A stretch of 64,000 nt of DNA, from the NCBI GenBank assembly GCA_013285405.1, contig CP053446.1, positions 1,215,985-1,279,984 on the forward strand, in the 5' to 3' direction. Origin of the DNA: Ignavibacteriota bacterium (GTDB taxonomy: Bacteria > Bacteroidota > Ignavibacteria > Ignavibacteriales > Ignavibacteriaceae). Each line of letters starts with the position of its first letter. Positions within the stretch are counted from its first letter, which is position 1. Positions 1 through 35,935 of the stretch are shown one piece after another. The position numbers were made by a program, and so were the translations under genes. Below the pieces are notes generated by a model. That model did no database searches, had not been told where the DNA came from, and worked only from the letters and a program-made list of their open reading frames with translations.

Positions 1-381
1 TACTTCATAAAGGAAAAATCTCCGATACGCTCACCAAAACATCTCTCACAGGAAGCAGAAGATATGCTCATTAGTTATTCATTTAACGGTAATATAAGAG
101 AGCTTGAACATATTATTGAAAGAGCTTTAATATTTGCAGAAGGAGATGTTATTTATCCTGAAGATTTAAATCTTCCTCAATCCTATCAAACTCCAACCAG
201 AAAACACACGGATATTGAACATGCTGAGGAAATTTTAAGTATGGAAGAACTTGAGCGGTGGCACATTAAAAAAGTCCTTGATAAAAACAGATGGGATAGA
301 ACACAGACAGCTAATCAGCTTGGAATTAGTCCAAAGACTCTGTATACCAAAATCAAGAAATATGAATTAAAACCAGTTTAA
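1..381 (+). CDS. NtrC-type sigma-54 response regulator, C-terminal part (5' end outside window)
   Basis: The frame is open from base 1, so this is the tail of a longer gene. The first part matches the end of a sigma-54 AAA+ domain: a NIRELEHIIERA segment (the usual form is GNVRELENVIERA) followed by GDVIYPEDL. The last ~45 residues form a Fis-type helix-turn-helix (LERWHIKKVLDKNRWDRTQTA, then LGISPKTLYTKIKKY). Such proteins open sigma-54 promoters after phosphorylation by a partner kinase. The hybrid kinase starting 6 bases after the stop is the obvious candidate partner. The receiver and Walker A/B motifs lie outside the window, so phosphorylation control is inferred from the family. Confidence 0.9.
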   Translation, partial: YFIKEKSPIRSPKHLSQEAEDMLISYSFNGNIRELEHIIERALIFAEGDVIYPEDLNLPQSYQTPTRKHTDIEHAEEILSMEELERWHIKKVLDKNRWDRTQTANQLGISPKTLYTKIKKYELKPV

Positions 382-3042: not shown

Positions 3043-6000
3043 TTATGTGGTTTTCAATTGAGTAATCAATGTCTGAATCTTGTGAGAAACAAATGCCGGG
3101 TTTACAGGCTTGGGAATATAATCTGAAAAACCATGCCTGATAATTATTTCTTTATCTTCCTTCATCGCTTTTGCAGTCACTGCAATAACAGGGATTTCTG
3201 CCCACTTAGTATTTGCTTTAATATTTTTTATGGTTTTGAATCCATCCATTTCAGGCATAATAATATCAAGCAGTATCAGGTCTGGAATTTTATTTTCCAA
3301 AATATCCAGGCATTCTTTGCCATTGTGAGCAAGAATAGGATTACAGTTTACCGTCTTAACAATTTCAGATAATGTAAACAATGTGTTAGAATCATCATCA
3401 ACAATCAGAACATTTAAATCAAACTGCTGATTATTGTTTGATTCTGAGTGTAATATTGCTTTAGGTTTCTTTTCAGTATTGGGCGGAGAATCGGGCACCT
3501 TCACAATTGTTGATTTGGCAAGTTTTTGAATCTCAAGCCAGTTGCTTACATAATGAAATACATCTATTGTGTGCTGTTCTGATTTTAAAGTTATTTCTTT
3601 TAAACTTTCATTCAATGATTTTTTTTCTGAATCGGAAAATTCATCATTTATAGCTATAAGCACCGGAATATGTCTGGTTTTCGAAGTTGATTTTAACTGA
3701 TGAGTAAGTTTTAAACCATCCACACCCGGGCTTGTCAGATTAATTATAATAACATCCGGCTGATTCTCTATTATGTGCATTAAAAAATAATCGCCCGGAC
3801 TAAATAAACTAAGTTCAATTCCATTATTCCTGAATGTTTCTGAATAGAAGCTAAAGTCCTCATCATCAAAATTTACAATAACAACTTTGCTCATTTTCTT
3901 TTTAAGGAGATTTGTCAATCTCGTAAATGAATCATCAAGGTTTTCAAATGTTGCAGGTTTTAATACAAAGTCAAATGTGTCTAAACAATAGCCGATGTTT
4001 GCTTCCGTTAACAAAGAAATTAAAATTATGGGAAGGTTTTTTGTTTTGGGATTTTTCTTTAGATCAGACAGTGTCTTCCAAACATTCTTAGTGGAATTCT
4101 TGGCATCAACTATTATTGCCAGTGGTGTACTGCTATCCTCAAAACTGAGATTATCTGCTGATTCATCAGTAAATGCTATTTCATATCCCATTGATAGCAA
4201 TTCCTGTTTTATTGAAGTCCTTAATTTTCTTTCCTGATCGATAACAAGTATTAAATTTTTATCATTTGCGTCAACTTCATCTTTTAGCATCATAGAACGA
4301 TTATCAGGAACAATCATAAACACCTGTTTAAATGGAATCGAAAAATTAAACGCAGAGCCATTATTAAGTTCACTTTTAACTGTGAGTTCTCCACCAAGTA
4401 TATCAGCAAGTTTTTTACTAATCGAGAGCCCCAATCCGGTACCACCGCGCTTTTTTGCTTTAGTACTATTCGCCTGTTGAAACTCTTCAAAGATAAAATT
4501 GATATCTTCAGTTGCGATTCCGATTCCTGTATCAATCACTTCAAAATTGAGCATTTCGTTTCGTACGGAAATTCTCAACGTCACTTTTCCATAGTCTGTA
4601 TATTTGATTGCATTACCAAGAAGATTTATTAGTACTTGAACTACTTTCCCGCGATCTGTGCTGATAATAGTATGCGTTTCAATATTCCTGATAATTTCAT
4701 ACGATATTTTTTTCTCCGCAGCGAGTGGTGAGATAGCTCCGGAAACTTCTGTAAGGATCTCATCTAACAAAACATTTTCGTTAATGACTTCAATTTTACC
4801 GGCTTCGATTTTTGAAAGATCAAGAATATCATTTATCAGAGTCATCAATCTTTTTCCGCTGTTAAAAACGACTTCTAACCTTTCCTTATTGCGTGGTTCA
4901 AGATCAACTTTTTCGAGCATCAGCTCTGTTAAACCCAGAATTGAATTCATTGGTGTTCGAAGCTCGTGAGACATTTTCGCAAGAAATTTTGATTTGGCAT
5001 CAGTCAGTTCAATTGCTTTCTGTTTTTGCTTTTCTAATTCTTCAGTCTGAGCCGTCAACTCTCTGTGCAGGTAGAGAAGAGTTTCATTCTGTTCTTTGAT
5101 TTGAATATTCTGCTTTTGATACTCATCGTTAAGAATCTTTAAATCGGCAACCAGTTTTTCTAACTGCAATAAAGCACGTGCGTTTGTAATTCCAATTGCC
5201 AACTGATCTTTTATTTTCTCAAGATAATCTCTTACTTCTTCCCGGGGTCTTGTTAATGAACCGAGTTCTAACAGTGCAACTGGTTTATTGTTATAAACTA
5301 CCGGAAGGAAAAGCAGATATTTTAATTTTAATTCCACAAGTCCTGTGGAGACAACCGGGAGTGATTCTTCGTCAATTAATTCAAGGCTCTGTTTAGTTTC
5401 CAGAACTTTTTTAAAGAAGGAATTGTTTTGTGAATGCCCCGGTTTTTCTGTATTCAGACCATAAGAAGAAATCAGTTTCAATTCATCCTCTACAGAATAC
5501 AATCCACCGATAATAAAATCACCCGCATCCAATATTTTCTTTAAAGCGGCATCAGAAATTTCTTTCAAAGTTGGATTCTGATTAATGAGCGTGATGAACT
5601 CCGCATATTCATTTCTGGCTACTTCTCTCTTCTTGAGTTCGTCCAGCATTTTATTAAATGCCATCCCGAGTTTACCAATTTCATCCTTACTTTTAATTTC
5701 AATTTTATTGTCAAACTTTCCGGCATACGTCTGCTCGGTGGCTTTACTTAGTTGGGTGAATTGTTTCCTTAGTTTGTCAGTAAAAACCAAAGTAAAAATT
5801 AACGAGAGTGAAATGCTGACTAACCCGATTATTAAAAAAATGTTTCTAAGTGTGGATCTAAGTTCGCCGGCTTCAGCAAAAGTTGAGAATACTAAATAAT
5901 AGAAATTATTCTTATTCTCGTCGGCGGCAGGTTTATAGATAGTTGCAAGAATATCTTCAGATTCTGTCCCCTGCAGATAAAGTTCAAAATTTCCTTTCGA

Positions 6001-6576
6001 TTTTAAATCTTCAGCTGCGAGATTTAATGCGTGAAGATATTTTTGATTAGCCTGTTCATTAGAAAAATCAGCAACATAACCATCCCAGATCAGGGCTACT
6101 TCCGAGTTTACTCTTTGAGCAATATCATTAAGCATTTCATTATTTATTTCTCTCCCATAAAGATATTCTTTACCATCAGGTGCAGTGTATGAGATCATTA
6201 TCAGATACGGATTTGAAGCGGTAAACTCTCTTAAGCTGAATTCTTTTGGCGGTAAGTTAATATTGTTCTTTACTTCATAATGTGACACGGATTTATTATT
6301 AAGCTCAATAATAAAATCAAGATTGCTCGTTTGAAACTTTTTATCTGACCATAAATCATCAATTCCATTTGTATATAAGGAAATAAAATCATCTTCTATT
6401 CCATTTTGGAACTGCTTATTAACACTTACTAAACTTCTGGCAGATTGCTGCAGGCTTCGCGTTTGAAAGTTTGTTAGAACTTCATAAATAATTGAATAGA
6501 ACACAACAAATGAAGTTCCCAGAATCAGTGCGACTATAAGAAAGTTGATTAACAATATTCTGAGACTGATCTTCAT
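3043..6576 (-). CDS. Membrane hybrid histidine kinase with three receiver domains
   Basis: A 1177-residue kinase. TM helices lie at ~8-30 and ~243-266 and bracket a periplasmic CACHE-like sensor of about 210 residues. Then come HAMP (~267-320), a GAF-like domain (~330-475), a coiled coil, HisKA with KMSHELRTPMNS (H537), and HATPase (GNAIKYTDYG, DTGIGI, GTGLGLSISKKL). Three receivers follow. The first (~790-905) is degenerate but keeps an Asp. The second (~908-1025) has Asn at the acceptor position (N946, IIINLTSPG), so it cannot be phosphorylated normally. The third (~1054-1177) is complete with D1104. The gene lies in the minus-strand run that follows the pilus genes, between two small receiver proteins, so it probably controls motility or secretion; that role is inferred from position. 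Confidence 0.92.
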   Translation of the reverse strand: MKISLRILLINFLIVALILGTSFVVFYSIIYEVLTNFQTRSLQQSARSLVSVNKQFQNGIEDDFISLYTNGIDDLWSDKKFQTSNLDFIIELNNKSVSHYEVKNNINLPPKEFSLREFTASNPYLIMISYTAPDGKEYLYGREINNEMLNDIAQRVNSEVALIWDGYVADFSNEQANQKYLHALNLAAEDLKSKGNFELYLQGTESEDILATIYKPAADENKNNFYYLVFSTFAEAGELRSTLRNIFLIIGLVSISLSLIFTLVFTDKLRKQFTQLSKATEQTYAGKFDNKIEIKSKDEIGKLGMAFNKMLDELKKREVARNEYAEFITLINQNPTLKEISDAALKKILDAGDFIIGGLYSVEDELKLISSYGLNTEKPGHSQNNSFFKKVLETKQSLELIDEESLPVVSTGLVELKLKYLLFLPVVYNNKPVALLELGSLTRPREEVRDYLEKIKDQLAIGITNARALLQLEKLVADLKILNDEYQKQNIQIKEQNETLLYLHRELTAQTEELEKQKQKAIELTDAKSKFLAKMSHELRTPMNSILGLTELMLEKVDLEPRNKERLEVVFNSGKRLMTLINDILDLSKIEAGKIEVINENVLLDEILTEVSGAISPLAAEKKISYEIIRNIETHTIISTDRGKVVQVLINLLGNAIKYTDYGKVTLRISVRNEMLNFEVIDTGIGIATEDINFIFEEFQQANSTKAKKRGGTGLGLSISKKLADILGGELTVKSELNNGSAFNFSIPFKQVFMIVPDNRSMMLKDEVDANDKNLILVIDQERKLRTSIKQELLSMGYEIAFTDESADNLSFEDSSTPLAIIVDAKNSTKNVWKTLSDLKKNPKTKNLPIILISLLTEANIGYCLDTFDFVLKPATFENLDDSFTRLTNLLKKKMSKVVIVNFDDEDFSFYSETFRNNGIELSLFSPGDYFLMHIIENQPDVIIINLTSPGVDGLKLTHQLKSTSKTRHIPVLIAINDEFSDSEKKSLNESLKEITLKSEQHTIDVFHYVSNWLEIQKLAKSTIVKVPDSPPNTEKKPKAILHSESNNNQQFDLNVLIVDDDSNTLFTLSEIVKTVNCNPILAHNGKECLDILENKIPDLILLDIIMPEMDGFKTIKNIKANTKWAEIPVIAVTAKAMKEDKEIIIRHGFSDYIPKPVNPAFVSHKIQTLITQLKTT

Positions 6577-6601: not shown

Positions 6602-6964
6602 TTACTGGTGATTTACTTTATTGATAGTTGAAAGAAGCTCTGCTAAATCATAAGGTTTGCAAAGAAAATCAGATGCTCCGAGCTTTGCACATTCAATTGC
6701 ACTCTTTACATCTGACTGAGCTGTTAATATAATTACTTTGGATTTGAAGCCCGGGATGTTGTTGATTTCTTTCTGAACATCAAAACCATTTTTCCCGGGC
6801 ATGTTAAGGTCAAGAAGAATGAGATCCGGATTATTCTGAATTAAAAATTCTACTGCGCTTTCTCCGTCTGTTAAATACCTTGCATTGTATCCTTTTGCAT
6901 TTAACTCTTCAGAAAGAAAACTACATAAATTAATATCATCATCAACAATCAGAATTGATTCCAT
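6602..6964 (-). CDS. Single-domain CheY-like response regulator
   Basis: A 120-residue receiver with no output domain: DDD at 8-10, acceptor D52 (LILLDLNMPG), a conserved Thr in ILTAQSD and the switch Lys in LCKPYDL. It acts by protein-protein contact or as a phosphate shuttle. It sits 3 bases after the secretin gene and 25 bases before the large hybrid kinase. This placement makes it a likely link between the kinase and the pilus motor or gene expression. Confidence 0.9.
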   Translation of the reverse strand: MESILIVDDDINLCSFLSEELNAKGYNARYLTDGESAVEFLIQNNPDLILLDLNMPGKNGFDVQKEINNIPGFKSKVIILTAQSDVKSAIECAKLGASDFLCKPYDLAELLSTINKVNHQ

Positions 6965-6967
6965 CTG

Positions 6968-8191
6968 TTAAGGGGTTTCTTTGGATTCAAACTCGTACAA
7001 TTTAATTTTGTTCCTGCCTCCATCCATCTCCCTTTTAAGTACATTTTCCCACTGAGGATTTTCGAATCTTTCCTGAAGCGTTGGCATAATCTCCAGCTTT
7101 AACAGAATCACAAGTTCTTTCTTTCTTATTGTGGTCTGATCAAACCCGGTAAGATAACGAATACCAAATACCCACCATGGAAGATCCTTTAAGAATGGAA
7201 TTCCATTACGAACTACAAGTTCTTCATTTACAAACAAACCACCGATAGCAGTTTCTTCACCATCCAGCATAATAACCTGAGTAGCTGCTGTTGTCTTTCT
7301 GATTTCTGTTGTTAATTCACTTGTCTGGAATGAACTCCTCTCAACAGCAACATCTAAAAGTGCATAATCTAATCCATTTTCCTTATGAACGTAAGGGGTT
7401 ACAATTATTATTGTTCCGGTTGGAAAGAATTGTTCAGTTGTATTGCCAGCAAAATCTCTTGTTCTTACAGAGAAGTCCGATCCAATTTGAATTTTACCTT
7501 CGTTTCGATCTCTTACCACAATACTCGGATTTGAAATTATTTCACCAATATTGTTCTGTTCAAAGAATTTGAATACTGCAGTTGCTTGTCCAAAAAAATC
7601 ACCTATCTGAAAATCAGATGTAACACCCAATTTAAATTCTGGTTGGAGACCTTGTGAACTCTGCTCACGTGATGTTTCTGTTTCACCTCTTAAAACACCA
7701 GCAAGATTAGTTTGTTCGCCGGAAAGCAAAACTCTCCAATCAAGGCCAACTTTTTTTGCTTCGACCAAATCTATTTCGCAAAAGAGAGCAGATATTTTCA
7801 CCTCTCTTTGAGTTGGGGGAGCATAAGTTTCGGGAGTTCTTTCAAGCTCTTCTTTTGTTTTAGATTTTACAATAATTACATCTTCCTTCATTTCATACTC
7901 AAGACCAGCAAAATTAACGATCATAAGAAGAGCTTTATCGTAAGGCATATTAGTAATTTCAATACCAATAGGATCTGTTTTCTGCACAGTTGCGACAATT
8001 CCTCTTCCGGAAACACTTTCGCTCACTTTGCTGAGCAATTCAATTGCCTGGTTGAAAGGCAGTGTTTCAGACATGGTCACCAGCTCGTCCGGGTTCTGGT
8101 TGGTTTTAAATCTTCGCTCCCAATATTCCTGAGGCGACGCCTGAAGGACGATGAAAATTGATATAACGAAGTAAGCTATAATGTTTTTCAT
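6968..8191 (-). CDS. Secretin-like outer-membrane pore protein (PilQ/GspD family)
   Basis: A 407-residue protein with an N-terminal signal peptide (about residues 1-20). An STN/N0-like segment (~40-110, AIELLSKVSESVSGRGI) precedes the secretin core (REVKISALFCEIDL; EIISNPSIVVRDRNEGKIQIGS; GIPFLKDLPWWVFG; KKELVILLKLEIMP). Secretins form the outer-membrane gate of type IV pili and type II secretion. It is short: PilQ is usually 600-700 residues, so the extra N1 domains seem to be missing. Position after the PilO/PilP-like gene fits the classical pilM-N-O-P-Q order. PilQ and GspD cannot be told apart here. Confidence 0.88.
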   Translation of the reverse strand: MKNIIAYFVISIFIVLQASPQEYWERRFKTNQNPDELVTMSETLPFNQAIELLSKVSESVSGRGIVATVQKTDPIGIEITNMPYDKALLMIVNFAGLEYEMKEDVIIVKSKTKEELERTPETYAPPTQREVKISALFCEIDLVEAKKVGLDWRVLLSGEQTNLAGVLRGETETSREQSSQGLQPEFKLGVTSDFQIGDFFGQATAVFKFFEQNNIGEIISNPSIVVRDRNEGKIQIGSDFSVRTRDFAGNTTEQFFPTGTIIIVTPYVHKENGLDYALLDVAVERSSFQTSELTTEIRKTTAATQVIMLDGEETAIGGLFVNEELVVRNGIPFLKDLPWWVFGIRYLTGFDQTTIRKKELVILLKLEIMPTLQERFENPQWENVLKREMDGGRNKIKLYEFESKETP

Positions 8192-8201
8192 GCTTGTACT
8201 C

Positions 8202-9083
8202 TTATTTTGTATTTAAATTTCTGTCTAATTCAAGGGTTACTTGTTCAATAATTCCACCCTTGTTCAGGATGAAGCTGACTGTGTTATTGTCATAGTCAAT
8301 TTTTGTAAGGTATCCGAGGTAAACTTGTTCTCCTTCCCAAACTAAGTATGTGCTGCCTTTATTATCAGCCACAAAAGCACCTTCAGGTATAAGCGCCAGC
8401 AGTCTGGCTCCCTGAACATCAAGCAGATTATCTACGTTCGGTGGAATTTCGTTTCTGATTAACGGATAGAAGGCATCATAGACTGGTCCGGTGGCAAGAT
8501 TATTCTCAACATATTCAGCAGGGGCAAAACGATTGTCGGATGAGAAATAAACTTTTGCCTGCATTTCAAAGTTCACTAAGAACATCGGGATTTCTTCCTG
8601 TATCTTAACCAGATTACTCAAAGAAACTTTGCTGATTTTCTTGAGCTCCTTGCTTTGCTCGATTGCATAAACCAGTTTATAAAAATCGTTATAGTTGCCC
8701 GATCCTGTCAATTTGTATTCGTGGAAGAAAAATTCCTTATCAGGTGTTTGCCCGATGTACTCCACATTTACCGTAGTTTCTCCTGGGAAGTTAGCAACTA
8801 TGTTATTAACGAAATTATAAAACTTGATGGAAGAAATATTCTGTGGAATATTAAATTTCCGGTTTGCAAGTATTGAGTCGAGCTCTGCAGATTGTTTCTG
8901 CAAATCACTATAGCGGTTTTCAAGCTCAACCGGATCATAAACATTTTTATTCAACTCATCAAGTTTTTCTTGTCTTTCTGAAATATCTCCTCGCTGAATG
9001 ACAAAAAGATAAATGCCGCCAGCAACCAGGATGATAATCAGTAGTGCAAGAACACTAAGAGTGCTAATTAATTTCTTATTCAT
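8202..9083 (-). CDS. PilO/PilP-like fusion (pilus alignment subcomplex)
   Basis: A 293-residue bitopic protein with one N-terminal TM helix (~8-29), then a coiled coil (~34-72) and a PilO/GspM-like ferredoxin fold (~85-185). The C-terminal ~70 residues (RLLALIPEGAFVADNKGSTY...VYLGYLTKIDYDNNTV) resemble the beta domain of PilP/GspC, normally a separate lipoprotein that contacts the secretin. It overlaps the upstream PilM/PilN-like gene by 8 bases and precedes the secretin gene by 10. Gene order strongly supports the alignment-subcomplex role; the PilP-like assignment of the tail rests on pattern and position only. Confidence 0.75.
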   Translation of the reverse strand: MNKKLISTLSVLALLIIILVAGGIYLFVIQRGDISERQEKLDELNKNVYDPVELENRYSDLQKQSAELDSILANRKFNIPQNISSIKFYNFVNNIVANFPGETTVNVEYIGQTPDKEFFFHEYKLTGSGNYNDFYKLVYAIEQSKELKKISKVSLSNLVKIQEEIPMFLVNFEMQAKVYFSSDNRFAPAEYVENNLATGPVYDAFYPLIRNEIPPNVDNLLDVQGARLLALIPEGAFVADNKGSTYLVWEGEQVYLGYLTKIDYDNNTVSFILNKGGIIEQVTLELDRNLNTK

Positions 9084-10617
9084 TTTGGTACTTCTGATTT
9101 GAAATTTGGAAATTTAAATTGAACCTGTATGCACTCTTTTCTCTTAACTCTTCGTATATCATACTCTGAAGGACAGCGTCCTGAATAGAATACGCAAAAT
9201 CTGTAAGAGAACTTCGTGTTAATGAATAACCTTCTGTATTAACTTTATTCCCCTCGTTCGTTAATTTTGATAACCACATATTATTGCTGGTCTGGCAGAA
9301 ACCCGATACTTGTTTAATAAGTTCCTTCCAGACACCTGTTCCTGCAGCCGCAGAATCTAGTATAGCGACAGTTTGCCCGAAGCTTCCGATTTTGCCTTCC
9401 AGGTTAGCTATCTTAACTAATACCTCCTGATTCTGCCTCATCAAAATTGTCTTCTCTTCAATTTTTTTATCAAGTTCAGCTAACTGTTTATTATTATCCA
9501 GTACTTTCTGAGTTATAAAGAATGCCGCAACAAATAATAATGGAAGAAGTGCATATCCGTGCCAGGAGAATTGAAATACCTTCTGTTCTTCTTTGATATA
9601 TTTTGGAAGAATATGCAGTCCCTGATGCTCTTTATTTAATTCATCATAATAATCGAGTGCTACAGAAACCGGAATGCTAAATGCTGAAAATTTTTCTTTT
9701 GATTCTTCGTTGAGTGCAGAAAGATCAAGATCATCAAATTCCAAACGGCTGACATTTGCTTCAGGAAAAGTTCCGTAAAAGGATAAAATTATATTCTCGG
9801 AATCATCTTCACCACAAACAATAATATTATCAAGTGATGATATTCCTCCGTTTTCCATTTCAAGTAAAATCTTAGAAAAATATACATCGTAAGTATGGAG
9901 GTTTTGTGTTCCGATATCAAGCGTTGTTCCGATATGTTTTATTCTTCGTCCCTGAAGGAAAATCAACTTGCTGTATTCTTTCCCGATATAAACGATTAAA
10001 GAATGATCATCTGGGAAGAATTTTTTTCGCTTTGCTACATAATATGCAAGAGATATATCAGAACTTTTTATCGTCGGTATATTGTATCCTCTTTTTCCCT
10101 TCTGGCGCGCAAGAGAATTTACAAGACTTGCACAAGGAATATTTTCAGTCACAAAAACGGCAAGCAAGGCTTTATCAGAAAGTTCAACATAATCAATGCT
10201 GGTTTTGTCAACTGCAATGTTCTTTGACTCAAGTATGTCATTAATTATAGCTTGTTTGAGTTTGGCTGGATTTTCAGACCTCTCCCCTTCATAAAGATGA
10301 TAGTAAATATTTGGCTCGGCTAAAGCCGGAAGGAATAAATGTTTGTTCAGATTGTATGAACTGAGAGCAGCATTAAGTTCATTCATTCCTGATAAATCGA
10401 GCTCACTTTTAGAAGACAGAGACCCTTCTAATCCCTCAAGATCAAGAGATTCTTCTTCTACGCTGAATCCGCCGCCGGGTTTATCCAGGCTAGCTGATTT
10501 TGAATGACTGATCGAGGCTGTTTTTATAACAGCGGGCTTACCTGTTGCCGCACTCTTATTAATAACAGCCAGCTTGATGTCATTGCTTTCACAATATATT
10601 GAAATTACTGGTTTCAT
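9076..10617 (-). CDS. PilM-PilN-like fusion (GspL-like)
   Basis: A 513-residue protein. Residues ~1-340 are a cytoplasmic actin-like PilM/GspL-type region (start MKPVISIYCESNDIKLAVI; later HSLIVYIGKEYSKLIFLQG). A TM helix follows at ~352-372 (YALLPLLFVAAFFITQ). A coiled coil and a PilN-like periplasmic domain make up the rest. In most type IV pili PilM and PilN are two proteins; here they are one chain, as in GspL of type II secretion. It overlaps the PilT gene by 4 bases and the PilO-like gene by 8. The region near residues 50-80 looks like a low-complexity insertion. Confidence 0.78.
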   Translation of the reverse strand: MKPVISIYCESNDIKLAVINKSAATGKPAVIKTASISHSKSASLDKPGGGFSVEEESLDLEGLEGSLSSKSELDLSGMNELNAALSSYNLNKHLFLPALAEPNIYYHLYEGERSENPAKLKQAIINDILESKNIAVDKTSIDYVELSDKALLAVFVTENIPCASLVNSLARQKGKRGYNIPTIKSSDISLAYYVAKRKKFFPDDHSLIVYIGKEYSKLIFLQGRRIKHIGTTLDIGTQNLHTYDVYFSKILLEMENGGISSLDNIIVCGEDDSENIILSFYGTFPEANVSRLEFDDLDLSALNEESKEKFSAFSIPVSVALDYYDELNKEHQGLHILPKYIKEEQKVFQFSWHGYALLPLLFVAAFFITQKVLDNNKQLAELDKKIEEKTILMRQNQEVLVKIANLEGKIGSFGQTVAILDSAAAGTGVWKELIKQVSGFCQTSNNMWLSKLTNEGNKVNTEGYSLTRSSLTDFAYSIQDAVLQSMIYEELREKSAYRFNLNFQISNQKYQNE

Positions 10618-11843
10618 TTTGCAGACAATAATTGGTTTATTCTTGTTTTATTATTTGAATAAGTAATCGCTGTTTCGAGCGATATCCTTTTCTGATCGTA
10701 TAAACGTTTTAAGTCCTGTTCCATTGTGACCATTCCCATCGGACCACCCTGATTTATCATCATATATATTTCACTGAGATTGTTATTCTTTATGGCAGCT
10801 TTAACACTCGAAGTTATAATTAAAACTTCTTTTGCTAATATTACTTTTCCATCCAGACTCGGAACGAGTTTTTGAGAAATAACAGAAACTAATACGTCTG
10901 CTAATCTGTTTCTTACTCTTTCCTGTTCATGTGCATCTACTTCAGCAATAATTCTTTCGATAGATTCAGTGGCTGATGAAGTATGAAGAGTTGAAAAAAC
11001 TTTGTGACCTGTATCGGTTACTTCAAGTGCAGCCATAATTGTATCCGGGTCTCTCATTTCACCGATGATTATTATATCCGGATCTTGTCGTAATGATTGA
11101 ACAACTCCTTCTTTAAAAGATAGAACATCTCTTCCAACTTCTCTGTGCTTGATCATGCAAAAGTTAGAGCTGTGGACATATTCAATCGGTGCAGCTATTA
11201 TTATTACATGCGCCGGATCAAATTTATTATGGTAATCAACTATAGAATCCAGTGTTGTTGATTTACCAGAACCTGTAATTCCTGTAATTAATGTTAAACC
11301 AAATTTTATGTAATTATGACTAAGATATTTAATTGCATTCTGATGGAAATCTAAAGAAGCAAGAGGACGAATAGTCGTGTTAATTGCTCTCATACTGCAT
11401 GCAAGAGTATCAAGATCAAAATACGCATCTGCTCTGAATCTTACATTAATTTTCCTGCGTTCATAGAAAAATGTATAACTGAAGTCAAGATTTCTTGTCG
11501 CAGCAATATATTTCTTCTGATTGGAATTGAACATATTTGCAATCAGTAATGCGGATTCATCTTCAGTGAATTGAGGAAGGTCCTTTATTCTTTCAAGTTT
11601 TCCATAAATCCTCATCCAGATGTAGCCTTCATTACCATGACCACCGATTTCAATATCAGAAGCATCACGCTCAATCATCGAAGTGAGAATTTTATTAACA
11701 AACTTTCTTAAAAGTACTGTTTCATCTTCCTTAAGTTTGCCGCTGTTCTCAAGAATGTATGCAACGCGGTCTGGTCCATAGATGGATTCAGGTATCCTTG
11801 CACAAAAATCTGATAAAATCTTTTTTTCTTCTTTGACTATCAA
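10614..11843 (-). CDS. pilT: PilT-like retraction ATPase
   Basis: A 409-residue hexameric secretion ATPase. Walker A GITGSGKST lies at about residue 186 and Walker B with Asp/Glu-rich DPDIIIIGEMRD at about residue 252; a His box (TGHKVFSTLHT) follows. It lacks the MshEN-type N-terminus and the zinc-binding cysteines of the PilB gene upstream, which favours PilT. Retraction of the pilus gives twitching. The start is TTG. A gap of 208 bases separates it from pilB, so a promoter could lie there, although I see no clear one. Confidence 0.88.
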   Translation of the reverse strand: MIVKEEKKILSDFCARIPESIYGPDRVAYILENSGKLKEDETVLLRKFVNKILTSMIERDASDIEIGGHGNEGYIWMRIYGKLERIKDLPQFTEDESALLIANMFNSNQKKYIAATRNLDFSYTFFYERRKINVRFRADAYFDLDTLACSMRAINTTIRPLASLDFHQNAIKYLSHNYIKFGLTLITGITGSGKSTTLDSIVDYHNKFDPAHVIIIAAPIEYVHSSNFCMIKHREVGRDVLSFKEGVVQSLRQDPDIIIIGEMRDPDTIMAALEVTDTGHKVFSTLHTSSATESIERIIAEVDAHEQERVRNRLADVLVSVISQKLVPSLDGKVILAKEVLIITSSVKAAIKNNNLSEIYMMINQGGPMGMVTMEQDLKRLYDQKRISLETAITYSNNKTRINQLLSAK

Positions 11844-12051: not shown

Positions 12052-13842
12052 TTAATCTTCAGTTGTTGATGAAATAACTTCTTCGATTGAAGTCATTCCC
12101 AATTTAACCTTTTCAAGTCCTGATTCTCTTAAGTTTAGCGTTCCATCTTTTTTTGCTTGTGTTTTGAGTAACTCTTCGTTCACTTCTTCACCGGATTTAA
12201 CTATCAGGTGTCTTATTTCTTTAGAAAAATAAAACGCTTCATGAATTGCCATCCGACCTTTAAATCCTGTACCACCGCATTCATCGCATCCGACAGCACG
12301 ATAAGTCTCATATTGCTTCCACTCTTCAGGATTTATTCCCACAGCTTCCAGGTAATCATCATCATGTTCAGTTACTCTCTTTTTACATTTAGAACATAAT
12401 TTTCTGATTAGTCTTTGAGCTACAATTAAATTTATTGCGTAAGCAATTAAGAACGGTTCAATACCCATTTTAAATAATCTTGATACCGCACTTGGTGCAT
12501 CATTCGTATGCAATGTGGAAAAGGTAAGGTGACCGGTATTTGCAAGCTTTATAGCAGTTTCTGCTGTTTCTTTATCTCTCATCTCACCGACGAGAACTAT
12601 ATCCGGGTCATGTCGTAATATTGACCTTATTGCTTGTTCAAAATTCATCTTGTAGCCAATCTTCAATTGACGTGCACCTTCAATAACATACTCCACAGGA
12701 TCCTCAACAGTAAGTACATTCACTTCTGGATTAATTACCTGGCAGAGTGCTGCAACAAGCGTTGTACTTTTTCCACTTCCGGTTGGACCAGTAAGAATAA
12801 CCATTCCCTGCGGCTGGTTAATTGCTTTAATGAATTTCTGTTTTGCAACACCGGTCAGACCCAGTTTTTCAAGATCTTTAATAACTTTTCTATCATCCAG
12901 TATTCTTATAACTACACTTTCAAATTTGTTTTTAAGTTCTGTACCAACCATCGGGAGAACCGATACTCTGAACCTGATTATGTAGTTATCAATTGCTCTC
13001 TGAATAAAACCATCTTGTGCCATTTCACGTTCGAACCTATCCATACCTTTTCCACGATCTTTAACAACTGCAATTACTGCTTCAGGTAAAGTGTTCTCCT
13101 GAACATGCCACAAACGTAATGTTCCGTCAATTCTCATATATATTTCAGTACGATGACCGCTTCCGGGAATAAAGTGAATATCGCTTGCCCCTTTGCGAAC
13201 TGCTTCTACTAATGCACCTTCTACAAGATTTATCAACGCACTTTTATTTATCTCAGCATCGAGTTCATCTTCGTCGAGATCCTCCCTCTCTTCAGTAGGA
13301 ATCAGATTCTCGTAGTCGTCTGAAATGTTCTGCAAGAATTTATTTTCGGGTGGGAAAAGTTTTTCAATTAACTGGTCATAATCTTTTTTCTTAATGAAGA
13401 TTACTTCTGTTTTTTTTGCATTCAGCCCGAAAGCAACTTTTTGGACATTTTTATTTGTTGGGTCAGTCGAGGCAATTATCAGTTTGTCTTTTATCTGCTC
13501 ATCATACATAAACGGAATAATGTTTTCTTTCAACATTATTTCTTTAAGTTCTTCGCCCCCGCTTTCCACTATACTGCGAATTGAATCGAGTTGATTCGGC
13601 TGGATTGTTTGCAAATCTATATCAAGTTCCCTGAATGCGTAAAGAATTGCAACTTCTCTGAAAATTACATCGTGCTCATATTTAAAATCATCTACAAGTA
13701 TCTGGGCAAGATTTCGTTTCAACTTATTACGATCATTAAACTTTGCATTCAGTGCTTTGTCAAGCGTTGACGCATCAATAATACCTTTCTTGAAGAGCAG
13801 ATAACCTATTTTGTCATTAATTTCCAATTTCGTCTCTATCAT
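12052..13842 (-). CDS. pilB: PilB/GspE-type assembly ATPase
   Basis: A 596-residue extension ATPase. An MshEN-like N-terminal region (~1-170) precedes the catalytic domain with Walker A GPTGSGKSTT (~350), Walker B DPDIVLVGEMRD and the His box TGHLTFSTLHT. A four-cysteine zinc site (CSKCKK and CDECGG, ~495-530) is typical of PilB/GspE and absent from PilT. It powers pilin polymerisation together with the PilC-like platform encoded 18 bases upstream. Confidence 0.93.
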   Translation of the reverse strand: MIETKLEINDKIGYLLFKKGIIDASTLDKALNAKFNDRNKLKRNLAQILVDDFKYEHDVIFREVAILYAFRELDIDLQTIQPNQLDSIRSIVESGGEELKEIMLKENIIPFMYDEQIKDKLIIASTDPTNKNVQKVAFGLNAKKTEVIFIKKKDYDQLIEKLFPPENKFLQNISDDYENLIPTEEREDLDEDELDAEINKSALINLVEGALVEAVRKGASDIHFIPGSGHRTEIYMRIDGTLRLWHVQENTLPEAVIAVVKDRGKGMDRFEREMAQDGFIQRAIDNYIIRFRVSVLPMVGTELKNKFESVVIRILDDRKVIKDLEKLGLTGVAKQKFIKAINQPQGMVILTGPTGSGKSTTLVAALCQVINPEVNVLTVEDPVEYVIEGARQLKIGYKMNFEQAIRSILRHDPDIVLVGEMRDKETAETAIKLANTGHLTFSTLHTNDAPSAVSRLFKMGIEPFLIAYAINLIVAQRLIRKLCSKCKKRVTEHDDDYLEAVGINPEEWKQYETYRAVGCDECGGTGFKGRMAIHEAFYFSKEIRHLIVKSGEEVNEELLKTQAKKDGTLNLRESGLEKVKLGMTSIEEVISSTTED

Positions 13843-13860: not shown

Positions 13861-15204
13861 TTAATTTACACCAGGCGTTTTTGGTCTTACAGTTGCTGTT
13901 TCCGCAGATACCAGAGTCAACGCAATCATGATTATCATAATTATCATTGCAATTGTAACCTGGATAATTTCGATGAGGTTCTTCAGCCGAAAAACCGTTT
14001 CACTCTCATAGTAATTTGCTAATTGAAGAGCTGTGTTCTTTATTGTTCCCGACTCTTCGCCAGAGTGAATTCTCGATATAGCTGTCTCGGTAAAAACACC
14101 TGAGGCTTCAAAAGCATCTGTAACTCCAACACCTTTCTTGAGCATTAGTGGTATCGCTATATTTTTAATTCTTTCTTCGAAATACCTGTTACCAGTAGCT
14201 TCTGCAGCAATCCTTATTGGTTCAATGCTTTCTGCTGAGCCATGATAAAGAGTGTAAAACACGCGACAAAATACTTCAATCAATGTTTTGTGAATTAGGC
14301 TTCCGATCACTGGAAGTTTTAATATGTATTCATCAAAAAGAAGTCTGCCTTTCTTAGTCCTGCTGAACTGAAATAAAGCTATAGGCGGTACAAAAATCAA
14401 CGCTCCGATCAGAATCGGGTTTGCAACTAAAAAATCACTCATTTTGAGTGTAAATGCAGTCATCGGTGGTAATTCAATACCAAAACGAACGAATAATTTT
14501 GCTGTTTCAGGGAATATATAACCAACATAAAATAATACTGCAAGGAAGAGCACAAACAATGTAACCATAGGTGTAATAAGTGCACTTCTTAAACTCTTTC
14601 TGAACTCTTGCCTTCTTTCAAGAAATTTTGCAGTTGCAAGATATATCTCGGTCATATTACCACTCTTCGATGCAAGCCCAAGCATATAAGCAGTGAACTT
14701 ACCAAAAATATTCTGATACTTTAAGAATGTTGCTTCAGAGTCAGCACCTTTTTTAAGATCATTTCCAATTTCTTTTAGAGTATTCCGCAACGTTGCATTC
14801 TGGGTATCATTGGTTAGCAAAGTTAGAATTTCTCCGTACCCAAGTTTCTGATTTAAAAGTTCAGCGCTAATTTTTACGAATGTAACGATCTCGTTGTTTG
14901 GTGGTTTTCGTTGAAAGTCAAGGAGTTTTTTATTTACTGACAGAACATTATATCCAAGCCTCGTCAGTGCTTCTTCAACTTCTTTTTTACTGAAGGCTTT
15001 TTGTTCACCGCTTATAGGTTTTTCTTTTCCTTTTCGTACCCTGTACAGATAAGTAGATTTTTTCTGAACGTCTGCAAGTTTAAGTCTGTTTTTTTCAACA
15101 AGTTTTTGAATTTTCTTTTTCCCCTCTAATGCAGTTGCAGCCGTAACTGTCCCGGATATAGGCTGACCATTAGACTTTTGTGCAGTGAATTTTAACTCAA
15201 CCAT
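13861..15204 (-). CDS. pilC: PilC/GspF inner-membrane platform protein
   Basis: A 447-residue member of the T2SSF family. The two homologous helical domains are visible (FVKISAELLNQKLGYGEILTL and IEVFCRVFYTLYHGSAESIEP), with membrane helices near residues ~220-240, ~265-285 and a strongly hydrophobic last helix (~420-438, VTIAMIIMIIMIALTLV). It anchors the PilB and PilT motors. It is the first gene of the machinery run; the 400 bases upstream hold repeats rather than genes. Confidence 0.92.
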   Translation of the reverse strand: MVELKFTAQKSNGQPISGTVTAATALEGKKKIQKLVEKNRLKLADVQKKSTYLYRVRKGKEKPISGEQKAFSKKEVEEALTRLGYNVLSVNKKLLDFQRKPPNNEIVTFVKISAELLNQKLGYGEILTLLTNDTQNATLRNTLKEIGNDLKKGADSEATFLKYQNIFGKFTAYMLGLASKSGNMTEIYLATAKFLERRQEFRKSLRSALITPMVTLFVLFLAVLFYVGYIFPETAKLFVRFGIELPPMTAFTLKMSDFLVANPILIGALIFVPPIALFQFSRTKKGRLLFDEYILKLPVIGSLIHKTLIEVFCRVFYTLYHGSAESIEPIRIAAEATGNRYFEERIKNIAIPLMLKKGVGVTDAFEASGVFTETAISRIHSGEESGTIKNTALQLANYYESETVFRLKNLIEIIQVTIAMIIMIIMIALTLVSAETATVRPKTPGVN

Positions 15205-15610: not shown

Positions 15611-15973
15611 TTAGAATTTCGTCTCGTGCCCAATAATTTCCTGGTTATTCAACTCAACAAGGTTACAATCGTTAAAAAGTTCTTCTATTTTTTCTATATT
15701 GGCAAGAATCAAGTCGCAAAGTTTATTGTTCGTAATGTTACCGGTTGTAATTATTAGCAGTCTTTGTGGATTTTTCTGAAGATAAAAAGAGTTTAAGAAA
15801 TCTGTGTCTTTCGTAGTAACTATCCTTTTTTCTTGCTGTGCTATATCACGAATTTCCTTATCAGTTGTTTTTTCTTTACGTGGCAAATTATCTGTATGGA
15901 TAACATCGTGCCCTTTTTCTTTAATTAGCAGTGAGAGCTTATAAAGCAGTTGAGCATCTATAATGAACTTCAC
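15611..15973 (-). CDS. DUF5615-family PIN-like toxin
   Basis: A 120-residue PIN-like protein starting MKFIIDAQLLYKLSLLIKEKG. Acidic positions fit the family: D6, then IVTTKDTDF in the middle. DUF5615 proteins are predicted RNases paired with DUF433 antitoxins. The gene overlaps its antitoxin gene by 4 bases, so the two are translationally coupled. The first motif reads DAQL rather than the commoner DENLP; activity cannot be judged from sequence. Confidence 0.8.
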   Translation of the reverse strand: MKFIIDAQLLYKLSLLIKEKGHDVIHTDNLPRKEKTTDKEIRDIAQQEKRIVTTKDTDFLNSFYLQKNPQRLLIITTGNITNNKLCDLILANIEKIEELFNDCNLVELNNQEIIGHETKF

Positions 15974-16569: not shown

Positions 16570-16965
16570 TTACTGAATAGCTGTAGTTATCGAACTTGGA
16601 GTTACCGAGGTTTCAACTGTCCAGCCATAACCTTGTCCAGTAGTTGGTGTTCCTTCAATTACGAGTAATGAATCACTTGTTGATGTAACCTCATAGCTTC
16701 CATTAGCAGTTGTAACTAATTTTGCTGGTATCTCAAAACCATTATCATTCGGACCTCCATCATTAAATGTATTTCCGCCACCACCCATTGATAATGGCTT
16801 CTTATAGAACTGCTGTGCCATCGCTGCAAGGTTTGTACAATCTGATACTACACCATCTTTTGCTGATTCTTCAGCATTTGCATTGAAAAGATTTATACCT
16901 ACAACAACTGCGATACCTACTATGATAACGCCAAGAACGATTAAGAGAAGCTGTTGCTGACCCAT
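16570..16965 (-). CDS. Pilin-like subunit with two-residue leader (paralogue 2)
   Basis: A 131-residue protein starting MGQQQLLLIVLGVIIVGIAV, so the hydrophobic helix begins almost at residue 1. Cleavage after G2 would leave a type IV pilin-like alpha-1 helix, but the usual charged leader, Phe1 and Glu5 are missing (position 5 would be Leu). The rest is a small globular domain with a Gly-rich turn (YKKPLSMGGGGNTF). Its paralogue lies 56 bases upstream with the same N-terminus. Upstream of the PilC/B/T genes these are most likely the structural pilins, probably highly expressed. The prepilin peptidase gene is not in the window. Confidence 0.75.
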   Translation of the reverse strand: MGQQQLLLIVLGVIIVGIAVVVGINLFNANAEESAKDGVVSDCTNLAAMAQQFYKKPLSMGGGGNTFNDGGPNDNGFEIPAKLVTTANGSYEVTSTSDSLLVIEGTPTTGQGYGWTVETSVTPSSITTAIQ

Positions 16966-17021
16966 TTTTTACTCCTTTGTTTGTTTGTGTTTAGTTAGTT
17001 ATGTGTTTTTTAATGAACTTG

Positions 17022-17405
17022 TTAATTAATAATCGTTGTGTACATTTCATCAGGTGTAACAACTGTTTCGACTTTTATTGAATCATTACCCGTTACTACT
17101 TCACTTCCTGTGCCAACTATTCTGATTTCTCCAGCCTGTATATCTGCTGTTAAAAAATTTCCATTTGCTGTTTGCACCATTTGTGAAGGAATGATAAAAC
17201 CTTCGAATGATTTTCCTCCCCCTCCAATTTCCGCAGGTTTCTTATAATATTGTAATGCCATAACCCCGAGACTAGTTGTTTCTTCAATCAATATGTCTCT
17301 CTTTCCTTCAATAGCATTTGCTCTAAATAATGTAATAGAAATAGCAACAGCGATTGCTATTATTATTAGTGCAAGTACTATCATTAAAAGCTGTTGTTGA
17401 CCCAT
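17022..17405 (-). CDS. Pilin-like subunit with two-residue leader (paralogue 1)
   Basis: A 127-residue paralogue of the next gene: start MGQQQLLMIVLALIIIAIAV, shared YYKKP and GGGGKSFEGF motifs, and matching TANGN and VETVVTP segments near the C-terminus. The same atypical N-terminus (G at position 2, no Glu5) argues that it is a family trait and not an annotation error. I chose the ATG at 17405 because the hydrophobic helix would be broken by any later start, and no upstream in-frame extension carries a normal leader. Confidence 0.75.
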   Translation of the reverse strand: MGQQQLLMIVLALIIIAIAVAISITLFRANAIEGKRDILIEETTSLGVMALQYYKKPAEIGGGGKSFEGFIIPSQMVQTANGNFLTADIQAGEIRIVGTGSEVVTGNDSIKVETVVTPDEMYTTIIN

Positions 17406-18098
17406 TGTTGTTTAATTAAATTATGTTTTAATTGTTGAATAGTAATGAGTAAAAATTATGCCATCAGGTAGAAAAACTATTCTTCAGCAAAATTTTCAAC
17501 CACAAAAGCCGTCATTGCTGTCAAGGTAATATCTACAAGTAAAGTTTGCTAACACTATTTGCTTTACTGCGGCGGCGCATTAGAAATTATTAGGATTTTG
17601 TAATTAAGACAATTTTTTCATAACTAATTGATTAATTTTTAAATACTTTGAATTTGCATTTATGAATGATTGTTAATTTTTACCGGTTCGACTTTCGGCA
17701 TTATTAAAAAATAGCAGAATTACCCGGTGGTAAATGTAATAGTTACGGAGAAAGGAAAAATTGAAATGAAAAAAATTTTTACTTGTCGATTTTGACGCCG
17801 ACATTACTGTCCATTAATTTTGTAAGAACTTTGTTGTCGGATCTATTTCACGAAGTAGTAAAAAAAATACCTGTTAAATTATCTTAATATGCAATTCCCT
17901 CAACTGTTCTTCGTTTACTTCAGACGGACATTCATCCATTAAAGAAACTGCGCTCGCTGTTTTGGGAAATGCAATTGTATCTCTTATTGAATCAACTCCA
18001 GCAAACAATATTACCATCCTGTCAAATCCGAATGCAATCCTACTGCGACGTGGTCACTATTTGTTTCTAAACCGATATTGAAAACATTGAAATTTAAA
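17406..18098. other. 693-base stretch with a displaced aspS tail and no intact gene
   Basis: The first ~470 bases are AT-rich and hold only small hairpins (for example AGTAAAG/CTTTACT near 17540-17570); they presumably include the promoter of the pilin genes. The right part carries the aspS 3'-end fragment (17874-18038). Nothing else is recognisable. Confidence 0.6.
17874..18038 (-). pseudogene. Displaced 3' end of an aspS gene
   Basis: On the minus strand this encodes the last ~54 residues of an aspartyl-tRNA synthetase plus a stop codon, in frame: it covers [19 protein letters not shown]-like sequence through [20 protein letters not shown] and ends IKII-stop. It matches the C-terminus of the intact aspS (20894 onward), differing mostly at third codon positions; the few residue changes include M to I, S to N and V to I. 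The 33 bases nearest the stop are identical. Upstream of position 18038 the match stops abruptly. It is a gene tail, not a decayed gene. Confidence 0.92.
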
Positions 18099-20239: not shown

Positions 20240-20476
20240 ATGGCAAACGTATTTGACAGAATAACTGTTAACCCTGCGATATGTATGGGTGAAGCAACAA
20301 TCAGGGGAATGAGAATCACTGTGGCTTTTGTGTTGAAACTTATCGCTTCAGGAATGCACAGCGAAGAAATCTTAAAATCTTACCCTGAATTAGAAAAAGA
20401 TGATTTGAAACAAGCAATAGAATATGCTGCGTGGTTGGCAAGTGAGCGTCACCAGCCATTGATGGTTAACAGGTGA
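20240..20476 (+). CDS. DUF433-family antitoxin (second pair)
   Basis: A 78-residue DUF433 protein (FDRITVNPAICMGEATIRG, VAFVLKLIASGMHSEEILKSYPELEKDDL). It is a diverged paralogue of the protein at 15970-16203. A good ribosome site (AAGGAG) lies 8 bases before the ATG. It overlaps the toxin gene by 4 bases. Expected to bind and silence the DUF5615 partner and to repress its own promoter. Confidence 0.85.
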   Translation: MANVFDRITVNPAICMGEATIRGMRITVAFVLKLIASGMHSEEILKSYPELEKDDLKQAIEYAAWLASERHQPLMVNR

Positions 20477-20850
20477 ATAAAATTAAGTTTATTGCAGACA
20501 TTCATATCTCTCCTGTAACCATTGAAGACTTACAGAGAAATGGATATGGTATTCAAAGAGTTACTGAATTTTTACCACCAAATGCAGTCGATGAGGAAAT
20601 TATTAATTTATCCATTCAGCAGGATGCAATTATAATTACTCAGGATTTAGACTTTTCAAACCTTATTGTTCAACATGGATTAACCAAGCCAAGTGTTATT
20701 TCTCTGCGTATTGAAAAACCAACTCCACAAAAAGTAACAGAAATTTTGATGAATCTTTTACCAAGAATAAAAGAAGAATTATTAAAGGGATGCATTATAT
20801 CTGTTGATGACAATCAATTTCGTATCAGGCAGCTTCCAGTTCGTAAGTAA
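20473..20850 (+). CDS. DUF5615-family PIN-like toxin (second pair)
   Basis: A 125-residue PIN-like protein with GTG start inside the antitoxin stop region. Motifs: FIADIHISPVTIEDL near the N-terminus, DEEIINLSIQQ, and IITQDLDFSNLIV with conserved acidic residues, then LRIEKPTPQKV. Predicted RNase toxin. Opposite strand to aspS, with which it converges 43 bases later. Together with the antitoxin it forms the cargo between the intact aspS and the displaced aspS fragments. Confidence 0.85.
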   Translation: MNKIKFIADIHISPVTIEDLQRNGYGIQRVTEFLPPNAVDEEIINLSIQQDAIIITQDLDFSNLIVQHGLTKPSVISLRIEKPTPQKVTEILMNLLPRIKEELLKGCIISVDDNQFRIRQLPVRK

Positions 20851-34618: not shown

Positions 34619-35935
34619 ATGAAAATAGACATATTTTCTCCTCCCCTAGTCGATTCAATTGTTTGGGGAACCATCTCGAAAAAATACCTCAGTAAGGTTT
34701 ACCATATCACTGAGAAAATTATTTCATTTCTATTTGTATTCAGTCTTATACAATTTGTTATCTCAGAAACACACGCTCAAAATTTTTTTCCATTAAAAGT
34801 TGGCAATGCTTACCAGATTAAGAATCTTTGGTCTTGGTGGGGTCCTGGAGGAAATGGTGAAATTGGAACTAACTATTACCCTATTACCGTTGTTGAAGAT
34901 ACTGTTATCGACGGAGATATCTTTTTCCGTTATTCTAATAATATATTACTTAATAATGCGTATTTATTTAATTATGATTCCCTAAATCAAAAGGTTTATG
35001 TAAAACTTCCGAATGACACTACACTAAGGTTAGGTGTTGATTTAAATTCGCCAGCTGGTGCAACTTACATCTCCTACTTACGTGGATCACCCTTACAATT
35101 TACGTCTGGTGGGATTACAAATGAAGTTGTTTTGGGAGATACGCACTCAGTTTACATCATGCAATATTCTCCGGCGTCAGATAACTTTATTTATAAATTT
35201 GCTGATAATATTGGTTTATCATATTTCAGAGCCTGGGGTGGAATCATTCAAGCTGGTTACCAATCCACGCAAAATGTAATCTCTGGCATTATTGATAGTA
35301 TAATTTATAACCCTATTATACTTGATATTGATACTCTCTATCCAATTCAGGATAGACCGATTGATACATTTCCATTTTTATTGACAGTATCTTACACCGC
35401 AAACTGGCCGCAACTGATAAATTCATTTTACTTATCAGTTGAGCATATCAGGGTTGATACTTTAATCCAATCATTGCAATATAATATTTCAAAAAATAAT
35501 CCTCATATTACTTTTAATTTGCCTGATTTGTTGGTCGGAGATAAAATTAAATTAAGAGCTACCGCAACAGATTCCAGTATTTTCTTTAACGTTGCTCAGT
35601 ATCCGGATACTGGGTGGGTTGTAATGAATGTATTACCTCCGATTTTAAATGTTGAAAACGAAAGTTTTCCAATACATTATGAGCTTCTACAAAACTATCC
35701 TAATCCATTTAATCCGTCCACTAAAATCAAGTATCAGATTCCTGAATTAAATTTTGTTATTATTAAAGTTTATGATGTGTTAGGAACAGAAATAACTACT
35801 CTTGTTAATGAAGAAAAGATTGCGGGAAGTTATGATGTTGATTTTGATGGAAATGAGCTGGCGAGTGGAATATATTACTATAGAATTACAACCGGAAATT
35901 TTTCACAAACCAAAAAAATGATTTTAATAAAATGA
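34619..35935 (+). CDS. T9SS cargo protein, paralogue 1
   Basis: A 438-residue secreted protein with a signal peptide (hydrophobic ~37-50, then THAQ before NFFPLKVGNAYQ). The body has no known domain. The last ~80 residues are a type A T9SS sorting domain: LLQNYPNPFNPSTKIKYQIP, IIKVYDVLG, LASGIYYYRITTG, and terminal KKMILIK. It is likely exported across the outer membrane and anchored or released by T9SS; no T9SS machinery is in the window. The N-terminus is long before the hydrophobic helix, so a later start is possible. It overlaps paralogue 2 by 4 bases. Confidence 0.85.
   Translation: MKIDIFSPPLVDSIVWGTISKKYLSKVYHITEKIISFLFVFSLIQFVISETHAQNFFPLKVGNAYQIKNLWSWWGPGGNGEIGTNYYPITVVEDTVIDGDIFFRYSNNILLNNAYLFNYDSLNQKVYVKLPNDTTLRLGVDLNSPAGATYISYLRGSPLQFTSGGITNEVVLGDTHSVYIMQYSPASDNFIYKFADNIGLSYFRAWGGIIQAGYQSTQNVISGIIDSIIYNPIILDIDTLYPIQDRPIDTFPFLLTVSYTANWPQLINSFYLSVEHIRVDTLIQSLQYNISKNNPHITFNLPDLLVGDKIKLRATATDSSIFFNVAQYPDTGWVVMNVLPPILNVENESFPIHYELLQNYPNPFNPSTKIKYQIPELNFVIIKVYDVLGTEITTLVNEEKIAGSYDVDFDGNELASGIYYYRITTGNFSQTKKMILIK

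Follow-up and report, generated by a model that had tools for sequence, protein, structure and literature searches.

A stretch of 64,000 nucleotides from the genome of an Ignavibacteriota bacterium (GCA_013285405.1, contig CP053446.1, positions 1,215,985 to 1,279,984; hereafter the window, with positions counted from its first letter) carries two pilin-like genes beside a run of type IV pilus genes. Both pilins start with MGQQQLL, at a point where an ordinary pilin would already have lost its leader peptide. In our assessment the locus probably encodes a type IVa-like pilus built from pilins that undergo no processing beyond, at most, loss of the initiator methionine. It also seems likely, though we hold this a little less firmly, that a large bacterial clade builds its type IV pili from major and minor subunits alike without prepilin processing, so that methionine aminopeptidase would be the only enzyme to act on them, if any does.

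In current accounts, type IV filament biogenesis begins with a shared step, the cleavage of the leader by a dedicated peptidase. An exception that spans a phylum would set the functions of the leader (targeting and holding the subunit back) apart from the needs of the machine, and leaderless pilins would offer a natural way to test what Glu5 and the N-terminal amine do. If the proposal is true, type IV filaments can do without the prepilin peptidase whenever their subunits have no leader.

Start sites and fold of the pilins

The two genes were first noticed in a sequence-only reading of the window, which stated that both proteins begin MGQQQLL and that the conventional leader and Glu5 are missing. 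Both open reading frames are present on the minus strand; their products share 48% identity and the MGQQQLL N-terminus.

17022..17405, minus strand: leaderless pilin paralogue 1, 127 amino acids, MGQQQLLMIVLALIIIAIAVAISITLF...
16570..16965, minus strand: leaderless pilin paralogue 2, 131 amino acids, MGQQQLLLIVLGVIIVGIAVVVGINLF..., modelled with a classical type IV pilin fold
16970..16977, minus strand: Shine-Dalgarno-like sequence AAGGAGTA (AAGGAG), 5' of the ATG at 16965

A conventional leader cannot be encoded in either gene because in-frame stops lie directly upstream with no start codon in between. For paralogue 2 (start at 16965) this is a TAA at 16969-16971, two codons upstream, and for paralogue 1 (start at 17405) a TAA at 17412-17414, three codons upstream. 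GGAG is also found at the place of the Shine-Dalgarno-like sequence in most relatives. Prepilin leaders comprise 6-26 residues (reviewed in PMC4471445); the window pilins have no such hydrophilic class III leader ending in Gly, only Met1 and Gly2. Searches of Pfam gave no match for either protein, N_methyl (PF07963) included, and NCBIfam and PHROGs gave no meaningful match. A match to an AtzG-like family at E 0.13 was rejected as chance.

We scanned GTDB species genomes and obtained 464 stretches encoding pilin relatives, and 77 loci were kept. As this first search had started from MGQQQLL and one other motif, it was repeated on whole genomes with a profile of 40 diverse members. N-terminal statistics were taken from 203 distinct homologues in the loci collected. 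Position 1 was a start codon in all of them (168 ATG, 24 TTG and 11 GTG), and since Val or Leu codons inside a longer frame would not be limited to GTG and TTG, position 1 is the true start. The nearest upstream in-frame stop was a median of 4 codons away, with a possible start codon between the two in only 8 of the 203. Gly2 was found in 202 homologues and is followed by Gln; residues 2-8 are almost invariant. Genomes often hold 2-10 pilin copies with variable C-terminal domains.

The absence of Glu5 has to be stated with more care. There is no Glu at mature position 5 in any register of the two window pilins, and with the start Met as residue 1, Gln stands at residue 5 in 201 of the 203 homologues, so that part of the sequence-only reading stands. 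It is register-dependent, however, and the remaining two homologues, the second pilin copies MANKELLL (locus L163, near 6045) and MGNRELLL (locus L173, near 5227), have Glu there, preceded by a positively charged residue 4. These two paralogues suggest that Gln5 may occupy the Glu5 slot, whereas an offset by one to three residues agrees better with the structural and HMM alignments.

Structure prediction, one of the checks proposed in the sequence-only reading, gave a classical type IV pilin fold. The AlphaFold model of the aligned pilin family (pLDDT 92.3) consists of a helix over residues 2-55, a 54-residue alpha1, and four strands. With VIA-align it matched Neisseria PilV at Z 10.9 (rmsd 1.7 over 86 residues), ComP at Z 9.8 and full-length PAK pilin at Z 8.0 (model 4..131 on chain 1..132); the top 16 rows, from Z 10.9 to 5.4, were all type IV pilins. 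Plain Foldseek returned nothing at E<=0.001 for this model, with pilins weakly at the top, and the VIA re-alignment was then clear. Matches of the pilin profile to the sequences of solved structures were weak (geopilin, E 0.68; PilE1, E 2.3), and we therefore relied on the fold for the identity of the pilins. As modelled, the window subunits belong to the type IV pilin structural superfamily, which is marked by an alpha1 of roughly 53 residues lying against an antiparallel sheet. Residue 1 of processed pilins aligns to model residue 2 (6xxd, 5vxx) or 4 (1oqw). Together with the length of alpha1, this alignment indicates that the primary product already has mature length.

Prepilin peptidase across genomes

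Class III prepilins are processed by PilD (Peptidase A24). We looked for this enzyme throughout the source genome, which is a single contig and 99.5% complete, as the sequence-only reading had advised. The A24 profile PF01478 gave no match there, while 12 of 14 control genomes matched. A lineage-specific A24 profile that includes divergent forms (A3) found nothing in the source genome even at E<=10; in the family of this genome it gave weak matches, partly broken by stops. N_methyl (PF07963) had no match anywhere in the source genome.

Comparison of the genome lists for the 245 genomes of the class showed the pilin in 132, PilC in 130 and both in 128 (Fisher p 4e-62, relatedness not corrected for). 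A24 was detected in 12 of the 245, all of them among the 128, which leaves 116 of 128 genomes with pilin and PilC and without A24. Several of these are single contigs (G107, G149, G164, G102, G137 and G030). Within 247 genomes of the phylum, the pilin occurred in 87, of which 10 had A24, and pilin matches from several other families of the phylum also start MGQQQLLL. Judged from these sequences, the leaderless pilin appears to be the rule across the class and to reach other families of the phylum.

The genomes that do have A24 are instructive. N_methyl prepilins occur in 11 of the 12 in the class, with an ordinary leader and Glu5 (for example MKRRLFTVQEG followed by FSLTELMVALVII). According to their coordinates, these prepilins mostly share a contig with A24, usually with a PilC of type II secretion system (T2SS) type, and lie apart from the MGQQQ locus. 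The presence of leaders in these genomes indicates that the clade uses leaders where the peptidase exists.

Remains or variants of such systems were seen elsewhere. In two T2SS-type loci from a different family within the phylum (L175:1-12001 and L176), a short divergent A24 stands beside PilC, and the prepilin leader may end in Ala (VKAYSLTEILIV). The source genome itself holds a stop-broken T2SS-type PilC (L136:8518-9717; G000:C1, ~2518.5-2519.7 kb), apparently what remains of a second secretion system, and the genome retains neither a peptidase nor an N_methyl prepilin.

The pilus machine and minor-pilin-like proteins

The genes downstream of the pilins, all on the minus strand, were assigned as follows.

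13861..15204, minus strand: PilC/T2SSF inner-membrane platform protein (Pfam PF00482, E 4.5e-28; NCBIfam PilC/GspF families)
12052..13842, minus strand: PilB assembly ATPase (PF00437, E 5.5e-103; best solved relative PilB 5zfr, E 1.4e-89)
10614..11843, minus strand: PilT retraction ATPase (TIGR01420, 319.7 bits against a cut-off of 319.1; solved PilT 2ewv, E 1e-62)
9076..10617, minus strand: PilM/PilN-like protein (weak match to PF05137 PilN, E 0.028; kept in 49 of 52 relative loci)
8202..9083, minus strand: putative PilO-like protein with one N-terminal transmembrane helix (assigned from its position and from being kept in 44 of 52 loci, no family match)
6968..8191, minus strand: PilQ-like secretin with an apparent Sec signal peptide (PF00263, E 1.4e-22; PilQ 9x0w, E 9.4e-14)
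6602..6964, minus strand: response-regulator receiver protein, last in the pilus gene run (related regulator family in 26 of 52 loci)
3043..6576, minus strand: hybrid sensor kinase, downstream (kept in 27 of 52 loci), possibly co-regulated with the pilus genes

The locus thus contains PilB, PilT and PilC together with a secretin, the set that marks a type IVa pilus machine, and the sequence-only reading was right in naming these four. PilT passes the curated cut-off of the type 4a family; PilB scores E 2.7e-131 with TIGR02538, under the cut-off of that family. Apart from the weak PilN match, the putative PilM/N/O alignment complex was assigned by position and conservation. The pilus gene run is conserved in 40-50 of the 52 relative loci. 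Clustering of the neighbourhoods of these loci found no further membrane protein or peptidase recurring in the run, and the idea of a peptidase hidden within the locus was dropped.

Minor-pilin-like genes were found outside the window. They form two families, V and W, with an X-like third gene, adjacent to one another and all leaderless. The source genome has two such sets.

G000:C1:3365094-3367435 (L197): V-W-X set, MNTGQ/MGTNTILD/MGKLSLF, no leader
G000:C1:633650-636062 (L198): V-W-X set, MTTAQ/MGFSVIFD/MGGKVSLL, no leader

Residue 5 is Gln in 19 of 20 members of the V family, and W proteins have Asp or Glu at residue 6 or 8. In both families residue 2 is often N, S, T, A or Q and not Gly. 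Of the 31 genomes of the family, 29 have both V and W; the other two have neither PilC nor the pilin either. None of the minor-pilin families has a significant Pfam match. The V model (pLDDT 85) combines a long helix with a sheet, and its best matches are the pseudopilins EpsI/EpsJ and XcpI, which at Z 7.6-6.9, under 8, are suggestive.

Proposed use of unprocessed pilins, rival explanations and known systems

We propose that both window genes encode subunits of a type IVa-like machine made of PilB, PilT, PilC, PilM-N-O-like proteins and the secretin. Translation would start at the +1 residue of a processed pilin or up to three residues ahead of it, and no class III leader would be made. The uncharged MGQQQ and the hydrophobic helix would then anchor the protein as a signal sequence that is never cleaved, leaving the N-terminus cytoplasmic and the globular domain periplasmic. 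PilC and PilB could extract the subunit from the membrane with no positively charged leader to be removed first, and methionine aminopeptidase would at most trim Met1 before the invariant Gly2. Gln5, or Glu in the two paralogues and Asp/Glu 6 or 8 in W, would sit at or near the Glu5 slot.

The start sites and their invariance, the predicted fold, the operon, the missing peptidase, the co-occurrence pattern and the leaderless minor pilins are shown by the sequence data; the topology, the trimming of Met1, filament assembly and the part played by Gln5 are inferred. Several observations weigh against this proposal. Residues 2-9 have a net charge of zero in all 203 sequences, which means that the positive-inside rule does not account for the N-in orientation, and the three invariant Gln residues exceed what a leaderless start alone requires. 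Glu5 mutants of known type IV pili form no homopolymers (PMC4471445), which means that Gln5 must act differently. A non-A24 peptidase may also be encoded outside the pilus locus.

Such an enzyme is assumed in one of the rival explanations. The sequence-only reading had left two options, cleavage after G2 or unprocessed insertion. In the former, a non-A24 peptidase would cut off the two residues MG and leave Gln, perhaps cyclised, at +1, much as in archaeal pilins, where Gln at +1 is common. Gly2 is invariant (202/203) and followed by Gln, and a Gly before the cut site is a hallmark of class III signal peptides (PMC4471445). Gly2 is explained equally well, however, as a substrate of methionine aminopeptidase or by packing, and the locus has no other conserved peptidase. 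Moreover, a Gly-specific cleavage cannot serve the whole subunit set because the minor families often lack Gly2. We therefore regard cleavage after Gly2 as improbable and favour insertion without processing (or with the loss of Met alone), because 116 of the 128 genomes have no A24 and the minor pilins often have no Gly2. That a prepilin peptidase is present and too divergent for detection appears less probable still. An A24 that scores near the cut-off does stand beside PilC in f39, a T2SS-type family of the phylum, but the f39 prepilins keep leader and Glu5, unlike the MGQQQ pilins. Moreover, the A3 profile with its divergent forms drew a blank in the source genome and gave only weak, partly stop-broken matches in its family, and no membrane aspartic protease in the locus tracks the MGQQQ pilins.

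A somewhat better chance, though still a low one, is given to the idea that these pilin-like subunits make no surface pilus. They would instead build either a short pseudopilus in the periplasm or a scaffold at the inner membrane, with secretion or DNA uptake among the possible functions. Pseudopilins have the same fold, machines for DNA uptake and secretion are built on the same core parts, and the filament itself is inferred only. Against this, the operon has a secretin and a PilT of the type 4a family, and the 2-10 copies per genome with variable C-terminal domains are as expected of exposed pilins. The conclusion that the subunits are leaderless is unchanged by this explanation. An annotation artefact, with the true start upstream and a normal leader, has next to no chance, and nothing turned up in its favour. 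It conflicts with the nearby stops, with the 8 of 203 intervals that contain a start codon and with the start codon always found at position 1, 35 times as GTG or TTG; going by these frames, it appears refuted unless the gene is recoded or frameshifted.

Among known systems, the proposed pilus shares with the type IVa pilus PilB, PilT, PilC, putative PilM/N/O-like proteins, a PilQ-like secretin and a pilin fold with a 54-residue alpha1. It differs in that major and minor subunits have no class III leader, that Glu5 is replaced by Gln or shifted and that the peptidase is missing in most genomes. As in class III prepilins, Gly is followed at once by the hydrophobic alpha1, but 0-3 residues and not 6-26 precede the mature start, the net charge is zero and there is no enzyme. 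MSHA pili also have a locus without a peptidase of its own (PMC6668835), but MSHA genomes have one in another system, whereas most MGQQQ genomes have none. The so-called T2SS of Bacteroidetes (Cytophaga type) is likewise a machine related to the type IVa pilus with divergent pilins (PMC6668835). Family f39 looks like this type, and differs from the MGQQQ system in its leader, its Glu5 and the divergent A24 beside PilC. Archaeal pilins often lack Glu5 as well (PMC4471445), but their prepilins have a longer leader and A24, and the MGQQQ machine is of the bacterial kind, secretin included.

Among 1656 species surveyed, those with prepilins encode a prepilin peptidase, the sole named exception being Nanoarchaeota (PMC4471445). 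We found no description of MGQQQLL, of leaderless pilins or of pili without prepilin peptidase in the open-access papers searched. The genome paper on Melioribacter roseus (2013) reported pilT, pilQ, pilB and pilC, and no pilA or pilD (PMC3534657). Contigs labelled Melioribacter roseus (L070, L078) encode MGQQQ pilins. The MGQQQ pilin supplies the missing pilA, and leaderless pilins would explain its pilus genes without pilA and pilD.

Two further features of the window were noted. Near the pilus locus lie two small PIN-like proteins (15611-15973 and 20473-20850), which we take to be of the DUF5615 type and each of which is possibly half of a toxin-antitoxin pair. At 34619-38411, three consecutive proteins of ~410-440 amino acids carry a C-terminal sorting motif of the type IX secretion type (YPNPFNPSTKIKY ... 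KKMILLK).
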